A stretch of 64,000 nucleotides of DNA from Brucella grignonensis (GTDB lineage Bacteria; Pseudomonadota; Alphaproteobacteria; Rhizobiales; Rhizobiaceae): the NCBI RefSeq assembly GCF_002252505.1, contig NZ_NNRL01000169.1:62001-126000 (forward strand). Direction: 5' to 3'. This document shows positions 6,293 to 21,432 of the stretch, one piece after another (positions within the stretch are counted from its first letter, which is position 1; every line of letters starts with the position of its first letter). Position numbers and translations under genes: made by a program. The notes below the pieces were generated by a model that saw only the letters and a program-made list of their open reading frames with translations, searched no databases and had not been told where the DNA came from.

Positions 6293-6580
6293 TTATTTGC
6301 GCAACTCGGCTTCGATCTGATCGAGAACCTGATCCTTGCCGATGCCTGTGAGGAAGGGCAGGCCCTTTATGACGGGCTTGGTCACCGAAGCCGAAATAGG
6401 TGTGGTGGAAACGATGAAATCCACATTGTCAGCCAGAGAAGCAACTTCAGTTGCTTTTGCCTGCTGAGCGTTGAAGGTAAGCCCGCGCTTTTTCATTTCT
6501 TCGGTGACGGTTGCATTCACTGCCGTAGATGTCGCTACACCTGTACCGCAAGCGAAGAGAATTGTTTTCATTTTAGCCAT
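6293..6580 (-). CDS. PTS galactitol-type EIIB component
   Basis: 95 residues from the ATG at 6578-6580, chosen because GGAGG lies 5 nt upstream; a longer in-frame start adds only four residues. The P-loop CGTGVATSTAV begins with the phosphocysteine (Cys11). The rest matches the GatB/lactose IIB-like fold. It accepts phosphate from EIIA (next gene upstream) and hands it to the substrate held by EIIC. Last gene of the EIIC-EIIA-EIIB operon, which reads leftward. A 104-nt repeat separates it from the EIIA gene. Confidence 0.88.
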   Translation of the reverse strand: MAKMKTILFACGTGVATSTAVNATVTEEMKKRGLTFNAQQAKATEVASLADNVDFIVSTTPISASVTKPVIKGLPFLTGIGKDQVLDQIEAELRK

Positions 6581-6616
6581 GGTTTCCTCCAATTGGTGCT
6601 TGTGTGTTCAGAGCGC

Positions 6617-6720
6617 TAGAGCATTTCCTGTTTTTCTTGAATCATTGGAAATGCTCTATTCTTTGTTTTTTCGCATTATCCGACGCAAAACCGCTTCGCA
6701 CTTTTGCTGGAAATGCTCTA
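6617..6720. repeat. Bru-RS-like 104-nt palindromic repeat, inside a PTS operon
   Basis: Begins TAGAGCATTTCC (6617-6628) and ends GGAAATGCTCTA (6709-6720), a perfect 12-bp inverted end pair. A second GGAAATGCTCTA (6647-6658) lets the left arm pair internally instead. It is nearly identical to the copy at 41409-41512. It sits between the EIIA and EIIB genes of one operon. Confidence 0.85.
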
Positions 6721-6724
6721 GCCT

Positions 6725-7186
6725 TTATTGCAAGGCAGTTTGAACGTCCTCAAGCGTGCGTGCGGCCTTCAGCCTGTCGAGTGCATCAGCGTCCTGAATG
6801 GTTGCCATGATCTGCTGCAAGGTTTCAATCTGTTTGTCCTTGTCATTGATGGCAAGCAGAAACACATATCCAACCGGGACAGCTTCTTCCGGATCTTCCA
6901 TATTGGCGAACTGGATAGGCGATTTCAGCGTCGCAAAGGCGATTCCAGCCTTGATCACATGTTCAGGATCGGTGTGAGGGACTGCGACGTTATCATCGCG
7001 CTCTAGCGGCAATCCGGTAGGCATGGACAGTTCGCGGCTGACGACGGCATCAGCATAGCTTGGCTTGACGTAGCCAAGTTTCTCCAGCTTGCCCGCCAAT
7101 ATCCGGATAATCTCTTCGTTGGTTTTTGCGTCGCTCTGAAGCTCGATCGCTTGTGGGTCGAGAAAATCAATCAGACCAGCAGCCAT
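6725..7186 (-). CDS. PTS fructose/galactitol-type EIIA component
   Basis: 153 residues from the ATG at 7184-7186 (GGAG 6 nt upstream; an ATG 12 nt further upstream is less well placed). The active-site histidine is in AVPHTDPEHV (His71), typical of GatA/FruA-type IIA domains. It takes phosphate from HPr, here probably the HPr domain of the fusion encoded at 15762-17744, and passes it to EIIB. Its stop codon lies 4 nt from the end of the Bru-RS-like repeat. Confidence 0.88.
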   Translation of the reverse strand: MAAGLIDFLDPQAIELQSDAKTNEEIIRILAGKLEKLGYVKPSYADAVVSRELSMPTGLPLERDDNVAVPHTDPEHVIKAGIAFATLKSPIQFANMEDPEEAVPVGYVFLLAINDKDKQIETLQQIMATIQDADALDRLKAARTLEDVQTALQ

Positions 7187-7263
7187 TCCATTCTCCATTC
7201 AAAGAAGGTCGCACGCCGATCTCGACGTGCGACTTGTATTTCATGCAGCGATCATTGTCGCGC

Positions 7264-8673
7264 TCAGGCTGCAATTTCGTCTGCAGGTTCGTCCTCAGCA
7301 CCCGCAGCGCGTTCCCATGCCTGCGTATTGCGACGATAGAGCATGAAAAGTGCTGCAATAACCACGGCGATTACCGCGATACCAATAGCACCGAGCCATT
7401 GGATGGCCGAGATGATGACGTAAGGCACCCACAGGAATCCATCGACCACCGAAGTAATCTGCAAGGCGTTCTCAGGCAGCTTGAAGCCCGACGAAACAGC
7501 CGCGCTGGTGAACAATGGTGCGAGCGCATTGGCGACATAGAAGCCGATGGCCAGTGTGATGGTTCCGACGACGACCATACGGAACACGTTTCCTTTCAGA
7601 AGCGGCGCCGTCATGGCGACGATGAATGGAATGACGGCAAGATCGGCGAACAGGATCACGCGGTTGCCCGGCAGGATGACCGACAGAATGATCGCAATCG
7701 GCACAAGAATGAGTGACGACGAGATTGCAGCCGGGTGTCCGATCAGGATTGCCGAGTCGAGACCGACAAGAAGTTCGCGGTCGCCTGTGCGCTTGCGCAC
7801 AAATTCCTGTGCAGCATCAGAAACCGGCAACAGACCTTCCATCAGGATTTTCACCATGCGCGGCAGAAGCAGCATGACCGCTGCGAGCGTCATGCCGGTG
7901 CCGAGAACCTTGGCGAGGATCGTGCCGAAGTCGCCTGCATTATAAAATGCGATAGTACCAAGAACGAGGCCGATGATCAGCCCCATCACGACCGGCTCAC
8001 CGAAAACGCCGAAGCGACGTTCGATGGTTTCAGTGCTGATGTTGATCTTGTTGATGCCGGGAATGCGATCCATGATCCAGTTGAGCACGATGGCGATTGG
8101 CAGGATCTGCGCCGAGGCCAGATGTGGCACGGACACACCGGGTACGCCATAGAACTGCTGAACAGCGCGTGCGGACCAGTCTGCAAACAGCAGCGACAGT
8201 GCTGCAACCAGTGCTGCAATGATGATGCCGTAAGCGAGATTATCGGTTGCAGCGACAACCAGCGAGCCTACGAAAGCAAAGTGCCAGAAATTCCATACGT
8301 CCACATTGAGCGTGCGCGTCCAGCGCATGAGCAGGAGGACGATATTGACCAGAATACCTACTGGAATAACCCACAAGCCCACGGATGAACCAAAGGCAAT
8401 GGCCGCAGCGGAAGGCCAACCGACATCAACGATGTCGCGTTTGATGCCTGTATTGGTCACGATTGCCTGAGCCACTTCACCGATGGAGGTGAACATAAGG
8501 CCAAGGACCAGATTGATACCGATGAAAGCGACGCCAATTGTTATGGCTGCACGGAAGGCTTTGCCGACCTTCGCCCCAAGTACCACTGCAATAATGAAAA
8601 TCACGATAGGCAACAGCACTGTCGCCCCAAGCGTATCGACTGCCGTTTTAAGTCCGCTCAGAAATGCGTCCAT
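7264..8673 (-). CDS. PTS galactitol-type EIIC permease
   Basis: 469 residues with about ten to twelve membrane segments. It matches the GatC family along its length (conserved GLWVIPVGILVN and LLPVSDAAQEF stretches), so it should be the sugar-alcohol-translocating subunit. It is the promoter-proximal gene of the EIIC-EIIA-EIIB operon, whose promoter and operator lie at 8783-8822, divergent from the oxidoreductase-aco operon. The substrate is not known; the neighbouring enzymes point to a branched or deoxygenated C5 polyol rather than galactitol, because no tagatose-phosphate enzymes are present. Confidence 0.87.
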   Translation of the reverse strand: MDAFLSGLKTAVDTLGATVLLPIVIFIIAVVLGAKVGKAFRAAITIGVAFIGINLVLGLMFTSIGEVAQAIVTNTGIKRDIVDVGWPSAAAIAFGSSVGLWVIPVGILVNIVLLLMRWTRTLNVDVWNFWHFAFVGSLVVAATDNLAYGIIIAALVAALSLLFADWSARAVQQFYGVPGVSVPHLASAQILPIAIVLNWIMDRIPGINKINISTETIERRFGVFGEPVVMGLIIGLVLGTIAFYNAGDFGTILAKVLGTGMTLAAVMLLLPRMVKILMEGLLPVSDAAQEFVRKRTGDRELLVGLDSAILIGHPAAISSSLILVPIAIILSVILPGNRVILFADLAVIPFIVAMTAPLLKGNVFRMVVVGTITLAIGFYVANALAPLFTSAAVSSGFKLPENALQITSVVDGFLWVPYVIISAIQWLGAIGIAVIAVVIAALFMLYRRNTQAWERAAGAEDEPADEIAA

Positions 8674-8782
8674 TTATCTCTCCTCCCCCTCGGAGCACGT
8701 CCCAAAGTGCACCGAACTAACAGAACATCATTATTAGCTCGCACGTATCGACGTTTCAAAATGTGAATTGGGCGAAACGGCA

Positions 8783-8792
8783 GAACATTTGT
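8783..8792 (-). promoter_or_regulatory. Operator copy 1 of ACAAATGTTC motif (EIIC promoter)
   Basis: GAACATTTGT on the plus strand. On the minus strand it immediately follows the -10 of the EIIC promoter (see 8795-8822). Exact reverse complement of the copy at 8881-8890 and identical to the copy at 20678-20687. Confidence 0.6.
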
Positions 8793-8794
8793 AT

Positions 8795-8822
8795 TCTATA
8801 GCAAACTAAAGTTGAATAACAA
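8795..8822 (-). promoter_or_regulatory. Candidate sigma-70 promoter of the EIICAB operon
   Basis: On the minus strand TTGTTA (-35, 8822-8817), a 16-nt spacer and TATAGA (-10, 8800-8795). The operator copy lies at the expected transcription start. Confidence 0.5.
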
Positions 8823-8869
8823 GATGGCATTTCGTGAGGTGTGAACGTTGCGAGAAGTGAACACTGGTA

Positions 8870-8898
8870 TTGACTTAGAAACAAATGTTCATTAATCG
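8870..8898 (+). promoter_or_regulatory. Candidate promoter with operator copy 2 (oxidoreductase-aco operon)
   Basis: TTGACT (8870-8875), a 17-nt spacer and a weak -10 TAATCG (8893-8898). ACAAATGTTC (8881-8890) lies inside the spacer, an ideal position for repression. Confidence 0.5.
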
Positions 8899-8952
8899 AT
8901 AATGCATCAGAGGAGACTGCGAGAATTTTGCAGGGACGTTCAGGAGGAAACG

Positions 8953-10272
8953 ATGGCAACCAATGTGGCGTTGACAGGTTTGGCGCGTGACATGCAGGCG
9001 CGGGCGGATAGTGGGCGACCAATTCGCATCGGACTGATTGGCTCCGGCGAAATGGGCACCGATATCGTCACGCGCGTTGCACATATGCCGGGCATCGAGG
9101 TTGGCGCTATTTCTGAACTGCGCGTTCCCAATGCACTCAAGGCCGTGGATATTGCTTTTCAGGAAGAAGGCCATGGCCGCGAGGTCTCGACAGCTTCCGA
9201 CCTGACTGCTGCTATGGAAGCGCACAAGGTTGCTGTAACCGACAATGCCAATCTGATCCTCGAAAATGATCTTATCGATGTCGTTATCGATGCAACCGGC
9301 GTTCCGGCTGTGGGGGCTGAAATCGGCCTGCGCGCCATGGAGCATGGCAAGCATCTTGTCATGATGAATGTCGAAGCGGACGTCACCATCGGTGCTTATC
9401 TGAAAGCCGAAGCCGAACGCCTTGGCGTGACCTATTCGCTGGGCGCAGGCGATGAGCCTTCATCCTGTATGGAGCTGATCGAGTTTGTGACCGCGATGGG
9501 CCACCCGATTGTGGCTGCGGGCAAGGGCAAGAACAATCCGCTCAATATTGATGCTGTTCCGGATCAGTATCTGGAAGAAGCAACCCGCCGTAACATGAAT
9601 GTACGCATGTTGGTGGAATTCGTCGACGGTTCAAAGACCATGGTTGAAATGGCTGCTATCGCCAATGCAACAGGTCTTGTTCCCGACAAAGCCGGTATGC
9701 ACGGTCCTGCTGCAACGCTCGACCAGCTCAATAAAACCCTGATCCCTGAAAAGGACGGCGGCGTGCTGTCGAAGGTCGGTGTGGTCGATTATTCCATCGG
9801 CAAGGGTGTTGCGCCGGGCGTATTTGTTGTCGCCGACATGTCGCATCCGCGTATTTCCGAGCGCATGGAAGATCTGAAGATGGGCAAGGGGCCATATTTC
9901 ACGTTCCATCGCCCGTATCACCTGACTTCCCTTGAAGTGCCGCTCACCTGCGCCCGCGTTGTGCTCTATGGCAAGCCGGACATGGTGCCGCTTTCAAAGC
10001 CGGTCGCCGAAGTGGCAGCTGTTGCAAAGAAGGACATGCAGCCGGGCGAAAAGCTCGATGCCATCGGCGAATATTGCTACCGCGCGTGGATCATGACTTC
10101 GGGCGAAGCGCGCAATGCGCACGCGATCCCTTGCGGGCTTCTGCAGGGCGGCAGCGTGACCAAGCCGATCAAGAAGGGCGAGCTCATCACTTACGATAAT
10201 GCGGCTGTGGCACCCGGTTCCAAGATTGCCGAACTGCGTGCACGTCAGGACAAGCTCGTTTACGGAGCGTGA
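8953..10272 (+). CDS. SAF-domain NAD(P)H oxidoreductase related to DXR-like protein (DRL) of Brucella
   Basis: 439 residues from the ATG at 8953, which has AGGAGG 5 nt upstream; a longer in-frame start lacks such a site. The N-terminus is a Rossmann domain (GLIGSGEMGTD, about 28-37) resembling homoserine dehydrogenase. A middle domain has GAGDEPSSCMELIEF and GKGKNNPLN, and the C-terminal third looks like an SAF domain (GEKLDAIGEYCYRAW...IPCGLLQGG). This architecture is that of DRL, which in Brucella replaces DXR and converts 1-deoxyxylulose 5-phosphate to methylerythritol 4-phosphate. Here it heads an operon with acetoin-dehydrogenase-like genes and faces a PTS, suggesting a catabolic use in the reverse direction (inference). 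The DRL match is from memory of the family, not an alignment. Confidence 0.75.
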   Translation: MATNVALTGLARDMQARADSGRPIRIGLIGSGEMGTDIVTRVAHMPGIEVGAISELRVPNALKAVDIAFQEEGHGREVSTASDLTAAMEAHKVAVTDNANLILENDLIDVVIDATGVPAVGAEIGLRAMEHGKHLVMMNVEADVTIGAYLKAEAERLGVTYSLGAGDEPSSCMELIEFVTAMGHPIVAAGKGKNNPLNIDAVPDQYLEEATRRNMNVRMLVEFVDGSKTMVEMAAIANATGLVPDKAGMHGPAATLDQLNKTLIPEKDGGVLSKVGVVDYSIGKGVAPGVFVVADMSHPRISERMEDLKMGKGPYFTFHRPYHLTSLEVPLTCARVVLYGKPDMVPLSKPVAEVAAVAKKDMQPGEKLDAIGEYCYRAWIMTSGEARNAHAIPCGLLQGGSVTKPIKKGELITYDNAAVAPGSKIAELRARQDKLVYGA

Positions 10273-10284: not shown

Positions 10285-11322
10285 ATGGTTCAAGCCAAAA
10301 AAGTCGAACCGCAGGATACGGGCGACCGTCACAACTTGCCTTATGCTTTCCGCACTTATTCGCCGGAACAGTTGAAGGAAGCACTGCATAAAATGTATCT
10401 CATCCGCCGCTTTGAAGAGGGCGCGGAAGAAAGCTACACGCGTGGCCTTATTCACGGAACGATGCATCTTTCTATCGGGCAGGAAGCGAGTGCGATGGGA
10501 TCGTGCCTGCCGCTCAACGACGATGACATGATTACGTCGACCCATCGCGGCCACGGTCATTGCATCGCCAAAGGTGCAGACGTGAAGCGCATGTTTGCGG
10601 AGTTTTTCGGCAAGGAAACCGGCTATTGCAAAGGCCGTGGCGGCTCGATGCACATTGCCGATGTTTCCAAGGGAAATCTCGGTGCGAACGGTATCGTCGG
10701 AGGGGGTATCCCGATTGCGGTCGGTGCAGCTCTTTCCGCCAAGAAGCAGAAAAACGGCAAGGTGGTCGTTTCGTTCTTTGGCGATGGTGCGAACAATGAG
10801 GGTGCTTTTCACGAAGCACTCAATATGGCTTCGGTCTGGAAGCTCCCTGTCATTTTCGTGTGCGAAAACAACGGTTACGGGATGTCTACTTCGACCAAGC
10901 GCTCGACGGCGGTTGCCAATGTCGCTGATCGTGCATCGGCCTATAACATGCCGGGCGTGATCGTGGATGGCAACAATCTGTCGGAAGTGGCAGAGGCCGT
11001 CAACGAGGCTACCGAACGCGCGCGGCGCGGCGATGGACCGACGCTCATTGAAAATAAGACATACCGCATTCGTGGTCATTCCAAGAGCGATCGCAACCGC
11101 TATCGCACTAAGGAAGAAATTGAGCATTGGCAGAATGATCGCGATCCAATCGCGCATTTTGAGGCCGACTTGAAAGCTTATGGCTTCATCAACGATGCCG
11201 AGATCGAGGCGATCCGTGCTGAGGTGGAGAAGGAAATCGCTGAGGCGATCGAATTTGCCAAGAACAGCCCTGCGCCTGATCTGACCAACCTGACCCGCGA
11301 CGTTTACACGGACGATATTTGA
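10285..11322 (+). CDS. acoA: Acetoin dehydrogenase-like E1 component, alpha subunit (TPP-dependent)
   Basis: 345 residues. The thiamine-diphosphate motif is [12 protein letters not shown]...CENN (GDG at 166-168, NN at 170-171), and [12 protein letters not shown] and GRGGSMHI are typical of 2-oxoacid/acetoin dehydrogenase E1 alpha. With the beta subunit it cleaves an acyloin and transfers the acyl group to lipoyl-E2. The next gene starts 2 nt after the stop codon, so it is tightly coupled. Preceded by the DXR-like gene with a 12-nt gap. A deoxyketose phosphate rather than acetoin is the substrate I favour, because no acetoin-specific genes (acoX, acoR) are present. Confidence 0.85.
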
Positions 11323-11324
11323 AC

Positions 11325-12323
11325 ATGGACACAGCAATCCGTGAGTTGAGCTACTCGCAAGCCATTCAAGAAGCTATGGCAATTGCCATGGAACGCGACG
11401 ACCGCGTTTTTCTGATGGGTGAAGACATTGGCGTCTATGGCGGCGCATTTCAGGTGACGGGTGATCTGGTGCATCGCTTTGGCGAAGACCGGGTTATGGA
11501 CACCCCAATTTCAGAACTGGGCGGCGCAGGTGTTGCTGTCGGTGCGGCCTTGACCGGTATGCGTCCGATTTTTGAGTTTCAGTTTTCCGACTTTGCTGCC
11601 CTCGGTATGGAGCAGATTGTCAATCAGGCGGCAAAAATCCGCTACATGCTTGGCGGTGCGGTTTCTGTGCCACTGGTCATGCGCTTCCCTGCAGGCTCTG
11701 GAACAGGTGCTGCGGCGCAGCACAGCCAGAGCCTTGAAGCATGGCTTGGCCATGTTCCGGGTCTCAAGGTTTTACAGCCTTCAACGCCGCATGACGCCAA
11801 AGGCATGTTGCTTGCGGCCGTTGAAGATCCAGACCCCGTCATGATCTTTGAACATAAGCTGCTTTATAAGATGAAAGGTCCGGTCCCTGAAGGCTTCTAC
11901 ACCGTGCCGATCGGCAAGGCAGAAGTGGTTCGCGAGGGTCGCGATCTAACCATCGTCGCAACAGCAATCATGGTGCACAAAGCACTTGATGCGGCTGCCG
12001 AACTTGCCAAGGAAGGCATTGATGTTGAAGTGATCGATCTGCGCACCGTGCGTCCGATTGATCGCGAAACCATCATTAAAAGCGTCAAGAAAACATCCAA
12101 GCTCCTCTGCGTTTATGAAGCTGTGAAGACGCTTGGTATCGGCGCTGAAATCTCCGCAATCGTCGCGGAAAGCGATGCTTTCGACTATCTCGATGCGCCA
12201 ATCGTGCGTCTTGGCGGGGCAGAGACTCCAATTCCTTATAATCCTGATCTTGAACGTGCGACTGTTCCACAGGTGCCTGATATCCTGAAAAGCGCGCGTG
12301 ATCTGGCCAAGGGAGTGCGCTGA
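11325..12323 (+). CDS. acoB: Acetoin dehydrogenase-like E1 component, beta subunit
   Basis: 332 residues from the ATG at 11325; a TTG six nucleotides upstream overlaps the acoA stop and is less likely. The sequence follows the transketolase pyrimidine-binding and C-terminal domains of E1 beta ([29 protein letters not shown], and [11 protein letters not shown] near the C-terminus). It completes the alpha2beta2 decarboxylase/cleavage component. It is separated from the E2-like gene by only 2 nt, so all four genes from 8953 to 13657 form one transcript ended by the hairpin at 13671. Confidence 0.87.
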
Positions 12324-12325
12324 CT

Positions 12326-13657
12326 ATGGCTGTGGAAGTCATTCTCCCCAAGGTCGATATGGATATGGAGACGGGGCAGATTTCGCGTTGGTACGCCAAG
12401 GATGGCGACACTGTCACGAAAGGCCAGCTTCTCTTTGAAATTGAGACTGATAAGGCGGCGATGGAAGTCGATGCGCCAGCAACGGGCATCATCGCAGATA
12501 TCAGCGCCGCAGAAGGCGCTGTTGTTCCGGTTGGTCAGACTGTCGCTTGGATTTACGACGAAGGTGAAAAGCGAGTTGGAGCTTCGGCACCTGTTGTCGA
12601 AGAGAAGCCAGTCGCAGCTTCCGTTGAAACGATCATCGAGCCGGCCATTCAGCAACAAGTTGAGCCTAAGCCCTCCCGAGACGATGTAGCCGGCTCAGCT
12701 GATGATGTGCGGGCAACACCGCTTGCTCGTCGGCTCGCCCGTGAAGCAGGCATTGATCTCGCCACCATTCAGGGCTCAGGGCCGAAGGGCCGTGTGCAGA
12801 AGAAGGACGTTGAAGGCAATACCGGCATTGCGAAGCCTGCGGTATCGGCTAAATCGCCTGCAATTAAAAATGTTGACCCATCCGCGCCCGGTCAGCTCAA
12901 TGCAGTCTGGTTGCGTGAGGGCGAGGCCGATCGGTTGCCGATTGTGCTGATCCACGGCTTTGCCGCAGACCTCAACTCATGGCGTGGCTTGTTTGCGGGG
13001 GCGTCGCTTGGCCATCCGATACTGGCGCTTGATCTTCCGGGACACGGCAATTCACCACGTGTTGTTCCTGAAAGCATCGATGATATTGCTACCGCCGTCG
13101 AAGCGACGCTTTCTGCTTTCGGTGTGACGTCTTGCCTGTTGGTCGGTCACTCGCTTGGTGGAGCTGTCGCCACAATCACCGCTGCGCGTGGCGTTGTCGA
13201 CGTGCGTTCCCTGTTGCTTATTTCTTCGGGGGGCTTGGGGCCGCAGGTCAATGGTGCATTCATAAAAGGTCTCGTCGGCGCGAAAAGCGAAGCCAGCATC
13301 GTTCCCTGGTTGAAACTGCTCGTTGCCGATGAGAGCCATCTGACGAAGCCGTTCATCAATGCAACAGTTGCACAAGCGGCTGATGCAGAACTGCGCGATA
13401 CGCAGGAAGCGATAGGTGCGCGGTTCTTTGCTGATGGCACGCAGACTTTTGAGGTTCGCTCAAGCATTGCCTCGCTTGCAATGCCGGTGCGGCTCATCTT
13501 CGGTGCCGAAGATCGGGTTATTCCCGTTGCCCAGGCCCATGGTTTGCCGGGGAAAGTTGGCGTCCACATTTTCGCAGGTTGTGGACATATGCCACAAATC
13601 GAAGAGCGGGCTGCGGTGCTGCAAATTCTCAAAGAATGCGCAGCCGCCGCCAATTGA
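12326..13657 (+). CDS. acoC: Acetoin dehydrogenase E2-like protein: lipoyl domain, E1/E3-binding domain, alpha/beta hydrolase
   Basis: 443 residues. A lipoyl domain occupies residues 1-78 with the modified lysine in ETDKAAME (Lys43). A peripheral-subunit-binding domain lies at about 130-165 (TPLARRLAREAGID...GPKGRV). An alpha/beta hydrolase fold occupies about 195-440, with the nucleophile in GHSLGG (Ser276), an acidic residue in FGAEDRVIP and a histidine in AGCGHMPQ. As in AcoC proteins, the usual catalytic acyltransferase core is replaced by the hydrolase-like domain, the expected partner of an acetoin-type E1. No E3 gene is nearby, so a housekeeping dihydrolipoyl dehydrogenase must serve. 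Confidence 0.88.
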   Translation: MAVEVILPKVDMDMETGQISRWYAKDGDTVTKGQLLFEIETDKAAMEVDAPATGIIADISAAEGAVVPVGQTVAWIYDEGEKRVGASAPVVEEKPVAASVETIIEPAIQQQVEPKPSRDDVAGSADDVRATPLARRLAREAGIDLATIQGSGPKGRVQKKDVEGNTGIAKPAVSAKSPAIKNVDPSAPGQLNAVWLREGEADRLPIVLIHGFAADLNSWRGLFAGASLGHPILALDLPGHGNSPRVVPESIDDIATAVEATLSAFGVTSCLLVGHSLGGAVATITAARGVVDVRSLLLISSGGLGPQVNGAFIKGLVGAKSEASIVPWLKLLVADESHLTKPFINATVAQAADAELRDTQEAIGARFFADGTQTFEVRSSIASLAMPVRLIFGAEDRVIPVAQAHGLPGKVGVHIFAGCGHMPQIEERAAVLQILKECAAAAN

Positions 13658-13707: not shown

Positions 13708-14736
13708 TTACTCGGACTGCGCCCTGTCCTTGAGCATCTGTGTCGCACTTTCTTCATCGGTGATGAGAACGGTGGGCTTCAGAAGTTCGATTGCGCCAAG
13801 CAGAGCGGCAATTTTCTCTTTGCCGCCTGATGTAAGAATACGCTGCGGCGTCTTCTGAAGACTTTCAATTTTTGCCGACATAACGCGATCGTGCACGGGA
13901 TCATCAACGATCTTGCCGTTCTTGTCATAGAAGTGGAAAAGCACGTCGCCAACAGCGCCATTCGCGATGAGCGAGAGCTTCTGTTCTTCATCAATCAGGC
14001 CGACACGATAAGACGTGCTGCTGGCGGTTTGAATGTCGCCAACGCTGAGCAGAACCATGTCCAGCTCTTCGGCCATATCCAGCACAGTATTCAATCCGCA
14101 ACGTTCGATAAGAGCGATCCGTGTCTCTTTGCTATCAACCAGAGCAGGGGCAGGGATCAGATAGCCTTCACCCTGAAAAATCTGCGCAAACTGCCAGGCA
14201 AATTCCGGCGGATTGGAACGGCGTGGCTGCACGATGCCGCCGAGCAGCGAGATGACTTTCAAATCGTTGAGTGGGCGGGCACCGATGTGCTGCAGAGTGC
14301 TGGAAAGAGTACGCCCCCAGCCGACGCCAATCGTCATGCCGTGCTGCACCTTTTCCGACAGATAAGCGCCAGTGGCAGCACTGATCGGTGGAATAGGATC
14401 AATGTCGGATGAAGAGAGCGGCGCGACAATCGCGCGTTCCAGACCAAAGGTCTTTTCAAGCTCTACTTCGAGTGCAGTCAGACTTGCCAGCTTGCCTTCG
14501 ATGGTAATTTTTACTTCATTGCGAGCACGGGCATCAGCGAGAAGACGAACGATTGTGACACGGCCGACGCCAAGCGCTTCAGCAATGTCGTTCTGGGTCA
14601 TTTGTTCGACGTAATACATCCACGCGGCACGCGTTCTCAACCGGCTCGTGCGGTTTTCGGCGGCAACGCCTTCCGATCCAATGATGAGGTCAGCTGTCTC
14701 CGGATTCTTTTGCGTCTTCTTGCCAGCTTTTTTCAA
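13708..14736 (-). CDS. SorC family transcriptional regulator of the PTS island
   Basis: 342 residues. The N-terminal helix-turn-helix (about 35-75: MYYVEQMTQNDIAEALGVGRVTIVRLL) is followed by the sugar-phosphate-binding SorC domain (VGWGRTLSSTL, SLLGGIVQPRR, DMVLLSVGDI, ILTSGGKEKIAALLGAI). SorC proteins typically sense a phosphorylated sugar or polyol, fitting a PTS system. It lies between the aco operon and the glucitol-type PTS operon. The likely target is the ACAAATGTTC motif at 8783, 8881 and 20678. Its gene starts ATG with AGGGATTATTTTG upstream. The exact ligand is unknown. Confidence 0.88.
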   Translation of the reverse strand: MKKAGKKTQKNPETADLIIGSEGVAAENRTSRLRTRAAWMYYVEQMTQNDIAEALGVGRVTIVRLLADARARNEVKITIEGKLASLTALEVELEKTFGLERAIVAPLSSSDIDPIPPISAATGAYLSEKVQHGMTIGVGWGRTLSSTLQHIGARPLNDLKVISLLGGIVQPRRSNPPEFAWQFAQIFQGEGYLIPAPALVDSKETRIALIERCGLNTVLDMAEELDMVLLSVGDIQTASSTSYRVGLIDEEQKLSLIANGAVGDVLFHFYDKNGKIVDDPVHDRVMSAKIESLQKTPQRILTSGGKEKIAALLGAIELLKPTVLITDEESATQMLKDRAQSE

Positions 14737-14883
14737 AATAATCCCTCAAATTATTGGCGCAATACTGCTTTATAGAAGTGATACTCTTAAAGCGAACCTA
14801 TTGCTTTTCCACGTGAAGGCAAACAATAATTCATGTGCTCTGTCCAGGCTGTTCCGGTGGCGCTTCGGTTAAGGAAAATGAAC

Positions 14884-15669
14884 ATGCTACGCATTCTTTC
14901 GGAAGAAATTGCAGTCAATCTGAAGGACCGTTTGCGCGAGGTTCGATACATGATTCGCCGCAATCGTCATGAAAGTTTGCAGGGCGAACAGGCCTCTTCG
15001 CGTCCGGGTGAAATCGTGTCACCGGAATTGCTGCTGGGACATGCCGCGAGCATGATGGACAAGGCGCTGACGACGGCTGAAACAATCTCCATTTCACTGA
15101 TTTCATCGAACCCGAATGTTCATAACAGTGCGCCGCATGTGAGAAGCCTGTCAGTTTATTTCGGCACAGGAGCTGAAGGTGGGCGCGCGTTCCGCAAGGA
15201 TATGTATTATCTCACCAAAGAAGTGCTCCGCCGCCATCAGTTGCAGAATGTGCTGATTCAGGAAGCTGTGTTTGTAACGGTGCATGCAAGAATGATGCGC
15301 AAACATGGAGCTCTCTTGAAGAGCGCGGTTGCCGCCGAAGTGGGTGACAAAAAAGTAGCCGAAACGGCCAAGGCCATCACGGCCATGTTTTTCGAGCTTC
15401 TTGCGGAAAAGCCGGTTCGTTTTATCTCACTGGATGGTCATTGTGATCCGCAGGCTTTGCGTAAATTCGAAACGATGTGTTTCGCTGCTGTTGGCCTGGC
15501 ATGTGGGCTGGCGACAGCCAAAGCTGGCGATCTGGAAGGAATTGACCCACTTGAGAGTGCCATTCTGGCTTTGGATGCAAGACATGAGCGTCTGATGCAG
15601 GCCGCTGAAGATCGGGATCAGTCACAGCTCGAAAATCTGTTCCAGACCTTGATTGCACACTTGCCATAA
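14884..15669 (+). CDS. Unrecognised helical protein in the PTS island
   Basis: About 261 residues from the ATG at 14884, where AAGGA lies 8 nt upstream; an ATG at 14878 and a longer frame starting at 14833 are alternatives. It is rich in predicted helix, has no signal peptide or membrane segment, and carries clusters such as LKDRLREVRYMIRRNRHES, SVYFGTGAEGGRAFRKDM and FISLDGHCDPQALRKFETM. I do not recognise the family. It is divergent from the SorC regulator gene and convergent with the HPr-EI gene, so it is inside the island by position. It may be a conserved accessory factor; no function is proposed. Confidence 0.7.
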   Translation: MLRILSEEIAVNLKDRLREVRYMIRRNRHESLQGEQASSRPGEIVSPELLLGHAASMMDKALTTAETISISLISSNPNVHNSAPHVRSLSVYFGTGAEGGRAFRKDMYYLTKEVLRRHQLQNVLIQEAVFVTVHARMMRKHGALLKSAVAAEVGDKKVAETAKAITAMFFELLAEKPVRFISLDGHCDPQALRKFETMCFAAVGLACGLATAKAGDLEGIDPLESAILALDARHERLMQAAEDRDQSQLENLFQTLIAHLP

Positions 15670-15740
15670 AGCAAAGCCCGGATATTAGAGCGCAGATCTT
15701 ACTCAATCAGATCGGCGCTCTAATATCCGGGCTTTGCTTT
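15668..15740. terminator. Large bidirectional hairpin containing a Bru-RS-like core
   Basis: A perfect 26-bp inverted repeat (15668-15693 and 15715-15740). Inside it a mismatch and five more pairs (GATCT/AGATC) close on a short loop. The inner part (TTAGAGCGC...CAATCAGATCGGCGCTCTAA) is a Bru-RS-like half element. Located between two convergent genes, it probably terminates both. Confidence 0.75.
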
Positions 15741-15761: not shown

Positions 15762-17744
15762 CTAATTTACCAGCATATCCGTGATCGTCTTTTTTGCACG
15801 GGGGATTGAAGCGGGGCTCATGCTGAACTCGGTCAGCCCCATGCGCATAAACTCTCCGATAAGTTCCGGCTTACCTGCAGCTTCTCCACACATGCCCACC
15901 ATGATGCCTGCTTCGGTACCCGCCTTTGCGGTCATCTCGATTGCCGCCATGACAGCCGGGTGGCTTACGTCGTTGAGCTTCGCAACGGTTGGATTGAGCC
16001 GATCTGCAGCCATCACATATTGCGTGAGATCGTTGGTGCCGATGGAGAAGAAAGCCGCTTCTTTTGCAAGTTCGCGGGCTGCAAAAACCGCCGCCGGCGT
16101 CTCAATCATCACGCCAAGGTCGAACTCGGCGAAAGCTTTACCTTCGCTTTTAAGTTCGCTGATGCATTCTGCGATCAGTCGTTTGGTTGCGCGAATTTCT
16201 TCGACATCCGAGACCATCGGCAGCATCACCTTGAGATTGCCGTTGACAGCTGAGCGCAACAAGGCGCGCAACTGCGGCTTGAATACATCCAAACGATCCA
16301 GACACATGCGAATGCCGCGCCAGCCAAGGAAAGGGTTTTCTTCCTCGGGAAATTCGATGCCCGCAATGGGCTTGTCGCCACCGATATCGAGCGTTCGGAC
16401 AATAACCGAATGTGGTGCAAATGCTTTGAGAAGCGCCGAATAGGTTTCGGCCTGCATGTCTTCGGAAGGCAGATGAATGTGCTTCATGAAGAGAAGCTCA
16501 GTGCGGAAAAGACCAACACCCATCGCACCGGCTTCGAGCGCGACGTCGATCTCCTCAAGCGCGCCCATATTGGCGGCAACTTCGATAATATTTCCATCTG
16601 CGCGTCGAGGAATTATCGAGCGGTAGGCATCAAGCGCCTGCTTTTCCTGCAATGCCGCAGCGATGCGTGTTTCGATATCGCTGCAGGTGGCCGCATCCGG
16701 GTCTGAATGAACGATACCGCTACTTCCATCTACAGCAACGACTTTAGCGTTTTTAAGCTGCTGAACCGCACTTCCGAGGCCAAGAACAGCCGGAATGCCA
16801 TGCGTGCGGGCAATGATTGCAACATGCGATGTCGCACCGCCATGTCCGCAGACAACGCCTTTGATTTTCTTGAGCGGAGCCCGTGCCAAATCCCAGGCGC
16901 CGATGTCTTCAGCGATAAGTACGGATCCTGCTGGCAAGCCCTCCAGATTGATGTCTTCTTTGCCGAGAAGGGCGAGGCAGATCTGGCGGCTGACAGCATG
17001 CACATCATCTGCACGTGCATTGAGATAAGGGTCATCGAGTGCCGCAAACTGTCCGGCAACTGTGGATGCGGCTCCCAGCATTGCGGAAATTGCATCCATG
17101 CCGCCGCGAATAAGCGAGATAGCTTCTTCAGTCAGGCTGTCATCAGCCGCAATATCTTTTAATGCAGCGATGATACCGCGATCTGTATCCGCAAGGTTCC
17201 CTGCTATGAGCGATTCATCCATGCGTTGTTGCACAGTCGTAATTGCCGATTTGAAATGGGCAATTTCTGCGTCAATTTCGGACGCTGCAAGCTTTCGACC
17301 CAGTGGCTTTATTTCCTCAGGAAAAAAGGGAAATGCCGTGCCTAAAGAAATGCCTTCGCTTGCGCCGACGCCCTTTATTTGCCCATCGGGAAGCTTTGCG
17401 ATTGTTGCTGCTTGAGCGACCGGTGCAGGTTTCGGTTCGGTGCCTGATGTCGAAATGGTAGGCGTTACCGCGCTGATTTCTTCAAGACCAGCCTGCGGGT
17501 TTTCCAGATAGCCGATCAGCGCTTCGATGGCTTCAATGGCATCGGCACCATCGGCACGAACGGTCACTTCATCAAGCTCTTTCACACCAAGCAGCATCAG
17601 CTTGACGGAGCTTTTGGCACTTACGCTTTTTCCGGCCTTGGCGATTTCGATGTCACTTTCAAAACCTTTGGCCAGTTTAACGAAGCGGGTTGCGGGGCGC
17701 GCATGCAGCCCTTCATGCACCCGGACGATAGTCGAGCGTTCCAT
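15762..17744 (-). CDS. HPr-enzyme I fusion phosphotransferase
   Basis: 660 residues. Residues 1-85 are an HPr domain with the phosphohistidine in GLHARPAT (His14). A proline/alanine-rich linker follows (about 90-120). Enzyme I then extends from about 122, with the active histidine in GGATSHVAIIART (His307) and C-terminal PEP-binding motifs (GLFRTELLFM, MIETPAA, SIGTNDLTQY). It moves phosphate from PEP to HPr and on to the two EIIA proteins in this window. An HPr-EI without an EIIA domain dedicated to a sugar PTS is notable in alphaproteobacteria, where most PTS proteins are regulatory. Promoter-distal in the GutM-EIIC-EIIBC-EIIA operon, after a 108-nt gap. Confidence 0.92.
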   Translation of the reverse strand: MERSTIVRVHEGLHARPATRFVKLAKGFESDIEIAKAGKSVSAKSSVKLMLLGVKELDEVTVRADGADAIEAIEALIGYLENPQAGLEEISAVTPTISTSGTEPKPAPVAQAATIAKLPDGQIKGVGASEGISLGTAFPFFPEEIKPLGRKLAASEIDAEIAHFKSAITTVQQRMDESLIAGNLADTDRGIIAALKDIAADDSLTEEAISLIRGGMDAISAMLGAASTVAGQFAALDDPYLNARADDVHAVSRQICLALLGKEDINLEGLPAGSVLIAEDIGAWDLARAPLKKIKGVVCGHGGATSHVAIIARTHGIPAVLGLGSAVQQLKNAKVVAVDGSSGIVHSDPDAATCSDIETRIAAALQEKQALDAYRSIIPRRADGNIIEVAANMGALEEIDVALEAGAMGVGLFRTELLFMKHIHLPSEDMQAETYSALLKAFAPHSVIVRTLDIGGDKPIAGIEFPEEENPFLGWRGIRMCLDRLDVFKPQLRALLRSAVNGNLKVMLPMVSDVEEIRATKRLIAECISELKSEGKAFAEFDLGVMIETPAAVFAARELAKEAAFFSIGTNDLTQYVMAADRLNPTVAKLNDVSHPAVMAAIEMTAKAGTEAGIMVGMCGEAAGKPELIGEFMRMGLTEFSMSPASIPRAKKTITDMLVN

Positions 17745-17852
17745 TTATATAAGCCTCAAAGCGACATCTGAAACATTCCAACATTTTGAATGTCGAAACT
17801 TGTTCCAATTATCTGTTTTAACACGTAATTCCAAATCCAATGATGGCCAGAT

Positions 17853-18233
17853 TCAGCCGCCAATGGTGATAATCTGCCCTTCTTTGAGAGCAGCGACAAG
17901 CTCTTCGCCGACGATTTCAGTAGCGCAAATTTCGCCTGGACGATCTGTGGACTGCGCGCCCGTAAACGAAATAACGACATGGCCGATTTCTCGTACTTTT
18001 TGCCAAGCGCTATCACCGACGGCTGTGATTTCTGCGTTGAGTGAGCCGATGGTGATGCGGGCTCCGACAGTGGGGGCGGCAGCTTCAGGGCCTTCTTCCA
18101 CGACATGCATTACGGAAACTTCAGCGAGTTCGGGTGGCGACCCATCTGCAAAAAGAATGAGAACGCCGCCTTCAGCGAGATCCGCAACTTCCGGGCCGAT
18201 TGCGGTGATCCGCGTTTTCAGATGTATCGACAT
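17853..18233 (-). CDS. srlB: PTS glucitol/sorbitol-type EIIA component
   Basis: 126 residues from the ATG at 18231-18233, preceded by AAGGA; a longer upstream frame overlapping srlE is spurious. It matches the SrlB/GutB family (HLKTRITAIGPEVADLAEG...ILFADGSPPELAEVSVMH). The phosphoacceptor is expected to be the histidine in VSVMHVVEE. Takes phosphate from HPr and gives it to the EIIB domain of the neighbouring SrlE-like protein. Confidence 0.88.
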   Translation of the reverse strand: MSIHLKTRITAIGPEVADLAEGGVLILFADGSPPELAEVSVMHVVEEGPEAAAPTVGARITIGSLNAEITAVGDSAWQKVREIGHVVISFTGAQSTDRPGEICATEIVGEELVAALKEGQIITIGG

Positions 18234-18351
18234 AGAGGCGGTCCTTTCTTGGTATGGTCTTCGATACTCGGGAAAATCGACGAAGAGCATCGCTATTGCA
18301 TATGTTTGGGAGATTGCCTGCCGCCACTTTTGCCGCGGCAGGCTGAACGTC

Positions 18352-19338
18352 TTAAAGCACTGCGAGGCTGACAACCCATGCGATCAGGACTGAAACTGGA
18401 CCCATGATCTGACGGCTGATCAAAACAGCTGGAACGCCAATTTCGATTGTCTTGGGTTTTGCTTCACCGAGCGCCAGACCAACTGGCACGAAGTCGCAAC
18501 CGACCTGCGTGTTGTAGGCAAAGAGCGCAGGCAGGGCCATAGCCGGAGCGATGGTGCCGTTGGCGATCTGCGGTCCTATGATCGCCACGCCGACGACCTG
18601 CGCGATAACCGCGCCCGGTCCGAGGATTGGCGAAAGGAACGGCAAGCCGCAAATTGCAGAAAGCACAAGCAAACCGACAATATTGTTGGCTAGCGGTCCG
18701 AGCGGCTGGGCAAGAATATCGCCGATGCCGGTATAGAGGATCAGACCGATCAGCATGGTCACGAATGCCATGAATGGCAAAACGTTACGGATAACCTGAT
18801 CGATTGTGCGGCGCCCCGCCTGGAAGAAGATACCAACCACACGGCCCATGACACGACCGATACTGCTGATCAGTCCGACCAAACCGCCTTCGCTCGGCTG
18901 TTCTACCGGTGCAGACTCTTCTTCTTCAACTGCGGCAACTGCAGGGGCAGCGGTGGCCGAGCCATCGGCAGAAACGATGTCTTCCGGCTTCACACCTGAC
19001 ACGTAAATGTCCTCGGTGATAAACTGTGCCAGTGGCCCGGATTGTCCAACCGGTGTGATGTTTACCGTTGGAATGCGCTTGCGCGGATAGACGCCGCAAC
19101 GGGCAGTGCCGCCACAATCGACAACCACAACTGCCATTTCGCTTTCGATTGGTGGTGAGCGGAAGCCGTCAACGGCCTCTGCTCCGGTCAGTTCGGCAAT
19201 CCGGCGTGCAAGCGGATGAATGCCGCCGCCAGTGACCGAAACCACCTTATTGCGTTGCTCTGTCGGCTGAATGACAAGCGGACCGCCCCAGCCATTTGAG
19301 CCGCGGGAAATTTTAACTGCCTTATAGGTCTTTACCAT
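18352..19338 (-). CDS. srlE: PTS glucitol/sorbitol-type EIIB-EIIC2 component
   Basis: 328 residues and collinear with E. coli SrlE. The EIIB domain is at about 1-125 with the phosphocysteine in VVDCGGTARCGVYP (Cys75). An acidic/alanine-rich linker spans about 128-150. The C-terminal EIIC half has membrane segments and LPFLSPILGPGAVIAQVVG and CDFVPVGLALGEAKPKT. A GGGGAGG site lies 6 nt before the ATG. With SrlA it forms the permease. Whether the substrate is sorbitol is open, since no sorbitol-6-phosphate dehydrogenase is present. Confidence 0.92.
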   Translation of the reverse strand: MVKTYKAVKISRGSNGWGGPLVIQPTEQRNKVVSVTGGGIHPLARRIAELTGAEAVDGFRSPPIESEMAVVVVDCGGTARCGVYPRKRIPTVNITPVGQSGPLAQFITEDIYVSGVKPEDIVSADGSATAAPAVAAVEEEESAPVEQPSEGGLVGLISSIGRVMGRVVGIFFQAGRRTIDQVIRNVLPFMAFVTMLIGLILYTGIGDILAQPLGPLANNIVGLLVLSAICGLPFLSPILGPGAVIAQVVGVAIIGPQIANGTIAPAMALPALFAYNTQVGCDFVPVGLALGEAKPKTIEIGVPAVLISRQIMGPVSVLIAWVVSLAVL

Positions 19339-19359
19339 GTCGTCCTCCCCAATTCCCGC

Positions 19360-20145
19360 TTAAAGCTCAATGCCTTGACGCCGCGCCATGATGGCGGTGA
19401 TGCGTTCTGTGAGCATGCCTTTAAGGAGGATCACGACGAGACCAACGATGGCGTACCAGATGGCCACGTTGATGTGATAACCCGTTGGAACTGCGCCCTT
19501 CTTTTCCAGTTCAAGAAGTGCGACGAGAATGCCACCCCAGACGAAATATTCGCCCGGATTGATATGCGGAAAGAGGCCCAGTGGCGGATGAACGTAGGAA
19601 ACAGCCGCGTCATAGAAGGCGGGCTTGTATTTCTCGTCCAGAAACGAACCGAATGTGTAGGCCATCGGGTTGGTCAGGAAGAACACCGAAAGAACCGGCA
19701 GAACGGTATAGCGGGTGAGCGCGATACGTCCGGCGCTGCGCGCGATGCCATGGACGCGCTTTTCACCGACCAGTTCGGTTACGGCATAGAAGGCGGTCAT
19801 CAGCACGACGAGTGTCGGGATAATACCCGTTACAAACCCAGCAAAAACTTCGCCACCTTTCTGGAAGACGCCAATGAAATGCTTGCCGATTGAAGCAAGC
19901 CAGCCAAGCTGTTCTTCCTGCTGGACGTTCTGAAGGCGTTCCTTGAACTGATCAACGGTAATTCCGCTGCTGCCGGCATCGGCAGGCGCGGTGGTTGTTG
20001 CTTGCGCAAGCTGCAGAAGATCATTTCCCGCGTGGTCTGCGGCATGTTTGCCATGCAGGGCAGCATCGGAAATCATGCTGCCAGCCATATGTATAGATTG
20101 CATTGTTACGTCGGCATGTTGTGCCAACATCGTGACTATCGACAT
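19360..20145 (-). CDS. srlA: PTS glucitol/sorbitol-type EIIC1 component with an unusual N-terminal extension
   Basis: 261 residues from the ATG at 20143-20145 (GAGGAGGAG just upstream). From about residue 88 (GKHFIGVFQKGGEVFAGFVTGIIP) it follows E. coli SrlA (187 residues), including LTNPMAYTFGSFLDEKYKPAFYDAA and GLFPHINPGEYFVWGG. The first 85 or so residues are extra: hydrophilic, methionine/histidine/alanine-rich, then a helical VDQFKERLQNVQQEEQL segment. They are clearly translated because the only strong ribosome-binding site precedes them. The role of the extension is unknown. Confidence 0.9.
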   Translation of the reverse strand: MSIVTMLAQHADVTMQSIHMAGSMISDAALHGKHAADHAGNDLLQLAQATTTAPADAGSSGITVDQFKERLQNVQQEEQLGWLASIGKHFIGVFQKGGEVFAGFVTGIIPTLVVLMTAFYAVTELVGEKRVHGIARSAGRIALTRYTVLPVLSVFFLTNPMAYTFGSFLDEKYKPAFYDAAVSYVHPPLGLFPHINPGEYFVWGGILVALLELEKKGAVPTGYHINVAIWYAIVGLVVILLKGMLTERITAIMARRQGIEL

Positions 20146-20182
20146 TGCTCCTCCTCGATTGCTTGTTTCAGGCAAGCAACTC

Positions 20183-20614
20183 CTATGCTCCCACTGCCTT
20201 CAGACCTTCGAGCTCGATCCCATCGGATTGATCTCTTATGCGACCGATCTGCTCTATCGCCTGCTTGGCAGCAGCCACCACTTCAGGCGTTCCTTCTCCA
20301 ATTGCGGGACTGTCCTGCAACTCGCTGAGGCGCATTCCCTCAAAGCCCTCGCGGCGGCTGAATTTTGCAAAAACCGTCCGACCGCTCATTTGCAGGAAGC
20401 GTCGCACCACCAAGTTGCGGTCTACGACGAGCAAAACAATGACGCCTCTGCCGAAGCGGCCTCGCACATGACCCGCGCCGACAAAACCGTCAGAATATTT
20501 CGAGGTGATACCTTTCATCACATCGGAATAGTGGCGCATCTGAAACCAAACGCCCAGAGACTGAAAGCCCCAAAGCAAGGCGAGCGCCAGCAAAGCCCAT
20601 TGCCAGATAGCCAT
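20183..20614 (-). CDS. gutM: Glucitol operon regulator GutM-like protein
   Basis: 143 residues, with one N-terminal membrane segment (about 4-22, WQWALLALALLWGFQSLGVW) followed by the GutM family pattern (GRFGRGVIVLLVVD...RRFLQMSGRTVFAKF). In enterobacteria GutM/SrlM is an activator of the glucitol operon; how it works with a membrane anchor is unclear. First gene of the leftward PTS operon (20614 to 15762) with GGGAGGAGAACAAA before the ATG. Its promoter carries operator copy 3. Confidence 0.85.
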   Translation of the reverse strand: MAIWQWALLALALLWGFQSLGVWFQMRHYSDVMKGITSKYSDGFVGAGHVRGRFGRGVIVLLVVDRNLVVRRFLQMSGRTVFAKFSRREGFEGMRLSELQDSPAIGEGTPEVVAAAKQAIEQIGRIRDQSDGIELEGLKAVGA

Positions 20615-20670
20615 TTTGTTCTCCTCCCACGAAGAGTGAGCCGGATATTACTCAAGCTCACCTTTCGTCA

Positions 20671-20701
20671 ATTAGAGAACATTTGTCTTCTTGAATGTCA
20701 A
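20671..20701 (-). promoter_or_regulatory. Candidate promoter of the gutM-srl-ptsHI operon with operator copy 3
   Basis: On the minus strand TTGACA (20701-20696) and a -10 of TCTAAT at 19 nt or TCTCTA at 17 nt. ACAAATGTTC (20687-20678) lies between them, as in the oxidoreductase-aco promoter. Confidence 0.5.
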
Positions 20702-20796
20702 TATGTATAATTTTTTCGATAAGTGAGAGCGAATGACACCTGACTTTTCAATCGGTTTCGCATAATGTCATTTACAAACGGGAGGCCGCTCGCAAC

Positions 20797-21432
20797 ATGG
20801 ACTTGCTACTCAGAGAACAAATGGCATCTATGCCTGATTTGCGCCATCGGTTGCGCCAGCTGCGTTGGTTCAGGGCGACGTTCCGCAAGCACGCCAGTCT
20901 GTTGCATGAGCTTTATGGCGTCGAATATGAGATTGATGAAAAGAAGCTCACCGAAGCTTTCCTGAACTGGGTGGAGCTCGTTGATCAGAACAAGCGTTTT
21001 GCCAAAGTGGACCGCAAAGACTTCATCACCTTCGCCGCAGGTCTTGTGTTGCGAGAGCTGATCCGCTTGTCACCTGCGAAGGTCGTTTTGCCGCCAAAGC
21101 ACGCCGCAGACGATGCCGCGCGTCTTTACGAAATCGTCAGCTTCTGGCCAGAAGGTTTTCTCTACACAAACTACTGTATCTGCGCGATTGCTGCTGTGCA
21201 GGAGCAGGAATTCGGTACTGTTCCGGATATCGATCAGTGTGCTGACGAGTTGCGAACGTGGTGGTCTTACAAGGAAAACGTCTCGGAAATGCCGGGTTAT
21301 GCGATTGCATTTCTCGATAAGTTTCTTGGTGGCGAGCCGAACTGGGTCATGCCGGATCTGGCTTCAGCGCGCGCTGCGGTGAAGCGTGCGCTCGGCGAAA
21401 ATAATCCCGTGACGAAGATTCAGAATACATAG
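20797..21432 (+). CDS. Unrecognised protein divergent from gutM
   Basis: 211 residues from the ATG at 20797, with GGAGG 11 nt upstream. Helical, cytosolic-looking, no signal peptide. Recognisable features are limited to tryptophan- and aromatic-rich stretches (LNWVELVDQNKRFAKVDR, SFWPEGFLYTNYCIC, LRTWWSYKENVSEMPGYAI). It shares the intergenic region holding operator copy 3 with gutM, so it is probably part of the same regulon. I do not recognise a family; function unknown. Confidence 0.7.
   Translation: MDLLLREQMASMPDLRHRLRQLRWFRATFRKHASLLHELYGVEYEIDEKKLTEAFLNWVELVDQNKRFAKVDRKDFITFAAGLVLRELIRLSPAKVVLPPKHAADDAARLYEIVSFWPEGFLYTNYCICAIAAVQEQEFGTVPDIDQCADELRTWWSYKENVSEMPGYAIAFLDKFLGGEPNWVMPDLASARAAVKRALGENNPVTKIQNT

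Follow-up and report, generated by a model that had tools for sequence, protein, structure and literature searches.

A Brucella grignonensis gene island that couples a type II DXR to an acetoin dehydrogenase-type complex and may serve methylerythritol or deoxyxylulose catabolism

Within a 64,000-nucleotide stretch of Brucella grignonensis contig NZ_NNRL01000169.1, which was analyzed as a whole and is called the window here, positions 6293-21432 hold a gene island that combines an oxidoreductase of the DXR type II (DXR-II), or DRL, family with an acetoin dehydrogenase-type complex (AcoABC) and two phosphotransferase systems (PTS). A first-pass annotation had listed a galactitol-type EII, a glucitol-type EII with GutM, an HPr-EI protein, a SorC regulator, a DXR-like oxidoreductase, and AcoA-AcoB-AcoC at this place, and open reading frame (ORF) calls together with profile searches recovered every one of these genes. 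The minus strand encodes Gat-type EIIC, EIIA, and EIIB (8673-6293), the SorC-type regulator, an HPr-EI fusion, and Gut-type EIIA, EIIBC, and EIIC with GutM (20614-17853). The plus strand encodes DRL-AcoA-AcoB-AcoC and two uncharacterized genes, Hyp278 and Hyp211.

The oxidoreductase gene (8953-10272, plus strand), for which only a DRL-like nature had been suggested, is assigned by homology to the DXR-II/DRL family proper. Its product reaches 226.7 bits with the DRL_cat family PF21135 (cut-off 27 bits; score read from a longer ORF start at 8902) and 722 bits across 435 residues with the DRL of Brucella abortus (PDB 3upl, 3upy). Homoserine dehydrogenase was rejected as an identity of this gene, as the likeness is only distant (21 bits versus a curated cut-off of 205). 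The island protein agrees with B. abortus DRL in family, length, and inhibitor-anchoring residues, and members of this family are known to make 2-C-methyl-D-erythritol 4-phosphate (MEP) (PMC3847144). According to that paper, Lys191, Lys193, and Thr229 of DRL anchor the inhibitor fosmidomycin, 11 sequences of the DXR-II clade were functional in complementation, further paralogs of DXR-II that are functional exist in O. anthropi and M. loti, and the clade includes a single sequence from S. fredii NGR234. In the NGR234 record NC_012586, the sole DRL place that was found sits directly before AcoA and may be the gene listed in that paper. The window DRL retains K191, K193, T229, and R320; the first three are identical in 87 of 87 rows of Aco-linked DRL (86 loci and the window), and a Deinococcus relative has K, L, and I at these positions. 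DRL is 96-100% identical in the Ochrobactrum-type Brucella loci (L003-L007, L009, and L010).

A profile search of the genome, which the first-pass annotation had proposed as a check, detected no DXR-I domain. Two DRL_cat genes are present: the island copy and an unlinked copy on another contig (G000:C60, loci L002/L149), which is 76% identical, has the same anchoring residues, and has no island Aco, PTS, or regulator gene in the surrounding 16.5 kb and no copy of the motif described below in the 200 bases upstream. A placement outside DRL, which the first-pass annotation had named as contrary to its proposal, was not what the tree gave, as both copies fall into one clade (97/94); the one outside relative used, from Deinococcus, lies far off. 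This clade has 24 rows, 21 of them Aco-linked, and the unlinked copy stands beside rather than clearly inside the linked crown (joining branch 81/27).

DRL is followed by genes for an AcoA-like E1 alpha subunit, a thiamine pyrophosphate-dependent dehydrogenase (10285-11322; TIGR03182 392.2 bits, slightly below the cut-off of 393.85), an AcoB-like E1 beta subunit (11319-12323; PRK09212 399 bits, cut-off 321), and an AcoC-type E2 (12326-13657; acetoin dehydrogenase E2 model NF011457 441.9 bits, cut-off 307), for which Pfam indicates lipoyl, E3-binding, and alpha/beta-hydrolase domains. All are on the plus strand, and the four genes are packed as an operon: 12 bases separate DRL from AcoA, AcoA and AcoB overlap by 4 bases, and 2 bases lie between AcoB and AcoC. 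The known acetoin dehydrogenase complex AcoABC has E1 alpha, E1 beta, and an alpha/beta-hydrolase E2 in the same order, and the same acyloin bond chemistry would be expected. Unlike the known complex, that of the island is tied to DRL and often to an uptake system that forms sugar phosphates.

The operon of the oxidoreductase with an acetoin-type complex, postulated in the first-pass annotation, is borne out by this packing and by its recurrence. When the best 80 of 567 relatives from a genome scan were kept, AcoA adjoined DRL in 66 loci. In a larger set of 133 DRL genes, consisting of the 80 scan loci, 12 plasmid loci, 40 loci of other Hyphomicrobiales, and the window, 87 genes (window included) have AcoA on the same strand at a distance of at most 800 bases. 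Furthermore, 33 plasmid records have AcoA at 60-80% identity (lowest 70.9%), and a comparison by eye showed DRL at 52% or more in 32 of these as well; the remaining record, from Rhizobium sp. SSA_523, contains Gat PTS, HPr-EI, a relative of Hyp211, and AcoABC. Beyond close relatives, a single stretch of Pseudoroseomonas (Rhodospirillales) combines SorC, ptsP, Gut, GutM, a Hyp211 relative, DRL (57%), AcoABC, and Gat. Terrarubrum and Paracoccus share Gut, SorC, DRL (57% and 52%), and AcoABC, together with ptsP or HPr-EI, and a plasmid of Priestia (Bacillota) has AcoABC-E3, SorC, a transporter of the major facilitator superfamily (MFS), DRL (42%), and an FGGY kinase.

The linked complexes also resemble each other more than they resemble other complexes. 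The island E1 alpha is at least 68% identical to that of the linked complexes in a survey of 199 Hyphomicrobiales genomes and 56% identical to that of Priestia, versus 43-44% when compared with the two most similar of the other complexes in the same genome (43%, 44%, and 31% for the three other E1 alpha matches). In linked E1, at least 97% of rows agree at 15 alpha and 10 beta positions, at which each of the four unlinked complexes in the comparison differs (Priestia, with too short an alpha row, is not part of the alpha set), although shared ancestry alone could produce such positions. Some DRL-Aco loci also contain lpdA and lipA, and another contains lpdA and a class II fba, accessories that fit the products proposed below. 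As side observations, a contig titled Bacillus subtilis SK6B4 (L060) has DRL with 86% identity and the gene order of a Rhizobiales locus (L028), and is likely a mislabeled or contaminated assembly. Plasmids of Clostridioides difficile (L180) and Enterococcus (L181) encode acetoin-type complexes with E3 and an E1 alpha of 51-53% identity; one of the two complexes adjoins a sugar-binding regulator and an MFS transporter, and neither stretch examined contains DRL.

A further link between the genes is a shared upstream motif. The window contains three exact copies of GAACATTTGT where 0.24 would be expected, and none of 100 shuffles reached three. The gatC/DRL gap has two of these copies and the gutM/Hyp211 gap the third. 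The corresponding predicted operators are GAACATTTGTATTC (8783-8796, plus strand) and GAACATTTGTTTCT (8877-8890, minus strand, adjoining DRL) in the gatC/DRL gap and GAACATTTGTCTTC (20677-20690, plus strand) in the gutM/Hyp211 gap. As the motif was chosen by comparing those same gaps, the count in the window is after the fact, and the counts at other loci are the better test. For these, 200 upstream bases were searched for the 10-base motif GAACATNTGT with at most one mismatch. It preceded 81 of the 86 Aco-linked DRL genes versus 4 of 45 unlinked ones (Fisher p 1e-23; 2e-9 after collapse at 93% identity, with 26/31 versus 4/35, which removes kinship in part), and likewise preceded GutM (29/29), GatC (12/12), and Hyp211 (27/33). 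The motif was absent or nearly so upstream of AcoA (0/86), AcoB (1/85), AcoC (0/81), HPr-EI (0/30), Hyp278 (0/11), GatA (0/12), and GutC (0/35), and was present in 122 of 3960 random pieces; the DRL gene of Priestia, counted apart, has no copy upstream. None of 200 letter-shuffled motifs matched the real counts (maximum 61 versus 81 for Aco-linked DRL and 23 versus 29 for GutM). Exact copies of the 14-base form occur three times in the genome, two of them in the island, while looser forms of the motif are not rare and not specific.

Because the motif is common to gutM, gatC, and Aco-linked DRL and rare at unlinked DRL, the two PTS and the DRL-Aco operon appear to form a single regulon. This predicted regulon agrees with the view of the first-pass annotation that they are parts of a single system. 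The known role of B. abortus DRL is biosynthetic; the island copy instead lies in an operon with an acetoin-type complex and behind a motif that unlinked copies rarely have. The protein binding this motif would be the SorC-family regulator with its sugar-binding domain (13708-14736, minus strand; PF04198 188.9 bits, cut-off 27). Judged by gene content and conservation, the island is a real, recurrent, and co-regulated-looking unit centered on the chemistry of MEP and 1-deoxy-D-xylulose 5-phosphate (DXP).

The uptake genes fall into two PTS, all on the minus strand. The Gat-type set consists of a GatB-like EIIB (6293-6592; PRK10310 46.7 bits, under the cut-off of 95) with a CGTG cysteine motif, a GatA-like EIIA (6725-7198; PTS EIIA models with a best E of 3e-16, every one under its cut-off), and an EIIC (7264-8673), which passes the cut-off of the wider Pfam family EIIC-GAT (PF03611, 292 bits, cut-off 24.2) and misses that of the galactitol-specific NCBIfam model (TIGR00827, 439.4 versus 542.2 bits). 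The Gut-type set consists of EIIA (17853-18374, start uncertain; PF03829 97.6 bits), EIIBC (18352-19338; PF03612 244 bits, PF07663 138 bits), EIIC (19360-20175; PF03608 211.8 bits), and a GutM-like regulator (20183-20614; PF06923 93 bits). The Pfam domains EII-GUT, EIIBC-GUT, and GutA are all present and do not imply a substrate. The likely phosphoryl donor of the island is the HPr-EI fusion (15762-17744; TIGR01417 470 bits, cut-off 341.7; TIGR01003 78.1 bits, cut-off 47.9), one of two PEP-utilisers_N genes of the genome. EII subunits and GutM are shared with the glucitol (Gut/Srl) and galactitol (Gat) PTS operons; unlike in those operons, the genes called in the island include no alditol-phosphate dehydrogenase or tagatose-bisphosphate enzyme and have DRL and Aco in their place.

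Uptake varies among genomes, as DRL-Aco is accompanied by Gut and Gat PTS with HPr-EI, by an ATP-binding cassette (ABC) transporter with a PfkB kinase, or by an MFS transporter with an FGGY kinase. In Agrobacterium, Sinorhizobium, and Rhizobium N324, the neighbors of DRL-Aco are an ABC transporter and a PfkB or sugar kinase; the PfkB domain was confirmed for the first two, and the third has a gene annotated as a sugar kinase. Since sugar kinases replace the PTS in some genomes, the substrate of DRL would be a phosphate, and this part of the earlier suggestion, that PTS uptake as a phosphate feeds DRL, thereby gains support. In several Mesorhizobium loci (L021, L023, L031, L059, and similar), DRL-Aco lies near an ABC transporter (solute-binding protein, permease in two matched stretches, and ATPase), in some cases with a SorC-family gene; no kinase was seen there, and this transporter could import a phosphorylated compound directly.

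Among 135 loci compared (132 DRL loci without the window, plus L179, L182, and L183), Gut genes occur in 35 well-flanked Aco-linked loci. In the loci examined, Gut genes always came with DRL, in some cases together with Aco and in others without it (Listeria, Ligilactobacillus, E. raffinosus). Gat genes accompanied DRL and Aco jointly, DRL without Aco (L132), or Aco without DRL (L179). These loci were mostly selected by DRL, which biases the assignment of the permeases. As DXP would be a substrate of DRL and Aco and MEP of DRL only, this pattern is best matched if the Gut-type permease takes methylerythritol and the Gat-type permease deoxyxylulose. In two genomes (G069 and G136), a DRL without Aco lies beside Gat genes (the full set of three in L132, whereas EIIB was the only one found in L137); both genomes also have an Aco-linked DRL and no DXR-I.

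The distribution of the two DXR types bears on the function of linked DRL. In the 199 Hyphomicrobiales genomes, DXR-I was found in 165 and any DRL_cat match in 103. At 210 bits or more, 41 DRL loci remain in 33 genomes, 7 with and 26 without DXR-I, and 14 of the 41 loci, window included, are Aco-linked. Four of the 7 genomes with DXR-I have an Aco-linked DRL (G172, G023, G134, and G116) and 3 do not; 23 of the 26 genomes without DXR-I have a DRL that is not Aco-linked. The remaining three (G085, G188, and G183) have only Aco-linked DRL at this threshold and encode IspF. G183 has one weaker gene in addition, and G085 and G188 each have a single DRL_cat gene, which is Aco-linked. As this gene is the sole DXR of either type found in two genomes with IspF, it should be a working DXP/MEP enzyme and should make MEP there, unless a dxr was missed in the assemblies.

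From these findings, it appears probable that the island enables the cell to consume methylerythritol or deoxyxylulose by conversion of MEP into DXP and of DXP into acetyl-CoA and glyceraldehyde 3-phosphate. In this pathway, the Gut-type permease would import and phosphorylate methylerythritol and the Gat-type permease deoxyxylulose, both being supplied by HPr-EI. DRL would run in reverse of the isoprenoid step and convert MEP into DXP. DXP is a methyl acyloin and has the type of bond that is cleaved by acetoin dehydrogenase. The AcoABC-type complex, with E3 provided from elsewhere in the genome, would cleave DXP with CoA into the two products, and this irreversible oxidative cleavage would remove DXP and pull DRL toward its formation. 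The SorC-family protein is proposed to bind the motif and sense MEP or DXP. Related chemistry is described in PMC3424233: given pyruvate and D-glyceraldehyde, purified pyruvate dehydrogenase (PDH) produces 1-deoxy-D-xylulose; DXP is formed in vivo by mutant PDH enzymes, and the wild type supplies too little of it. That paper also cites a 1986 paper that, by its title, concerns 1-deoxyketoses from pyruvate and acetoin dehydrogenases. No such catabolic pathway was found in the open-access literature, a search to which key subscription papers were external. Of the pathway as first sketched, the identity of DRL, the lack of a dxr elsewhere in the genome, the operon with Aco, a common predicted regulon, and a phosphorylated substrate of DRL gain support from sequence and from comparison of genomes, while we continue to infer the imported compound, the direction of DRL, and the cleavage of DXP. 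Overall, the catabolic pathway seems the best explanation of the island.

Several points weigh against this reading. The DXR equilibrium favors MEP, and the island E1 may accept other acyloins. DRL occurs without Aco in 14 of the 80 scan loci. No DRL was found within the 19 kb examined around the Gat, HPr-EI, and AcoABC genes of Rhizobium sp. SSA_523. In Listeria, Ligilactobacillus, and Enterococcus raffinosus, DRL (37-41% identical) and a Gut-type PTS are present with no Aco genes in the stretch, so that another fate must exist there. Neither Gut nor Gat genes are present in 21 well-flanked Aco-linked loci, some of which were examined for other transporters. Regarding the motif, just 7 of 36 SorC genes have GAACATNTGT upstream, and it is missing from the ABC promoter of one locus (L084). 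With up to two mismatches, the 14-base form occurs five times in the window, a number reached or exceeded in 6 of 100 shuffles, and with up to one mismatch it occurs seven times in the genome versus five for a reversed control. The motif is also missing at 5 of the 86 Aco-linked DRL promoters, including those of G085 and G188, the two genomes from which a working DXP/MEP enzyme is argued; this would suit a double role of DRL in them and makes them poorer examples of DRL under the predicted regulation. Their assemblies are 99% and 98% complete, respectively, so a missed dxr is possible.

The alternative that fares best is that the true growth substrate is 1-deoxy-D-xylulose, or a 1-deoxyalditol converted into it, with the PTS producing DXP, Aco cleaving it, and DRL only shunting some DXP to MEP. 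Rhizobium sp. SSA_523, with its Gat PTS and Aco, would fit such a scheme, as would a second SorC-headed island upstream of the window (G000:C73, L175 3503-15552). The latter pairs acetoin-type E1/E2 with a sugar ABC transporter, an AhpD-like protein, a XylB-like kinase, and two short-chain dehydrogenases/reductases, has no DRL in the 19 kb examined, and resembles a deoxyketose or deoxyalditol pathway built on the same principle. For the island itself we regard this alternative as unlikely, as DRL and AcoA are neighbors in 66 of 80 loci, also where DXR-I (G172, G023, G134, and G116) or a second, unlinked DRL makes a shunt needless.

It is rather improbable, too, that the island DRL has drifted, with unchanged chemistry, to a different branched polyol as its substrate, for example 2-C-methylthreitol or apiitol. 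The presence of two different permeases would agree with this, and the DRL-Gut locus of Ligilactobacillus has genes annotated as transketolase and fructose-6-phosphate aldolase, which would suit a non-deoxy ketose phosphate. However, the anchoring residues equal those of unlinked DRL, no DXR other than the Aco-linked DRL was found in G085 and G188, and an acetoin-type E2 suits a methyl ketose. Very little speaks for an accidental grouping, in which an acetoin operon borders on a PTS island of unrelated function and DRL is a spare gene for isoprenoids, since, despite the name of the E2 model, acetoin dehydrogenase, the same set recurs in different order in Pseudoroseomonas, Terrarubrum, Paracoccus, and Rhizobium and one motif is common to most loci.

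Both remaining island genes are conserved, although neither matches a Pfam family above its cut-off. Hyp211 (20797-21432, plus strand) has 444 homologs at E ≤ 0.001 and tblastn matches (E ≤ 1e-4) in 36 loci, where it accompanies DRL-Aco in both the PTS and the kinase versions. Its predicted structure is helical (mean pLDDT 89) with no Foldseek match at E ≤ 0.001, and its FWPEG sequence is invariant across 30 aligned sequences. Hyp278 (14833-15669, plus strand), a putative partner protein with tblastn matches (E ≤ 1e-4) in 14 loci, is a fast-changing neighbor of Hyp211. Intergenic palindromic repeats of the AGAGCATTTCC and GCGCTCTAATATCCGG types lie within the island and just past its end (6593-6724, 15670-15740, 21537-21560). 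By ORF reading, the flanks look like a BioY/CbiQ/CbiO biotin transporter set (4096-6040) and a ribose-type sugar ABC transporter (21987-26829).

On the DRL tree, the Aco-linked label needs at least five changes. Divergently oriented to the unlinked DRL of the genome is a HAD phosphatase gene (L002 178-939) that is 57% and 53% identical to HAD genes in two catabolic clusters (L083, L065). A derivation of the essential Brucella DRL from a catabolic gene appears possible but is not settled. As a broader and more tentative proposal, on which we lean slightly to the skeptical side, DXR-II may have arisen or persist as a catabolic enzyme that several lineages, including Brucella, recruited as their sole isoprenoid reductoisomerase; bacteria would have a dedicated pathway for eating methylerythritol, perhaps also its isomer 2-methylthreitol, in which the sugar is phosphorylated during uptake, DXR-II runs backwards, and an acetoin-type complex undoes the DXP synthase reaction.

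Methylerythritol is a plant metabolite, and the 2-methyltetrols methylerythritol and 2-methylthreitol are tracers of aerosol derived from isoprene. Tracers of isoprene-derived aerosol are a subject of PMC4740749 and PMC6145830. If the proposed pathway is true, it would provide a gene-level bacterial route for using free methylerythritol, and it predicts an enzyme complex that cleaves DXP. An enzyme known as an alternative enzyme of isoprenoid biosynthesis and as a drug target would have a second, catabolic role, which would help to explain the patchy spread of DXR-II and its retention in genomes with DXR-I, and the origin of the essential Brucella enzyme would become testable.

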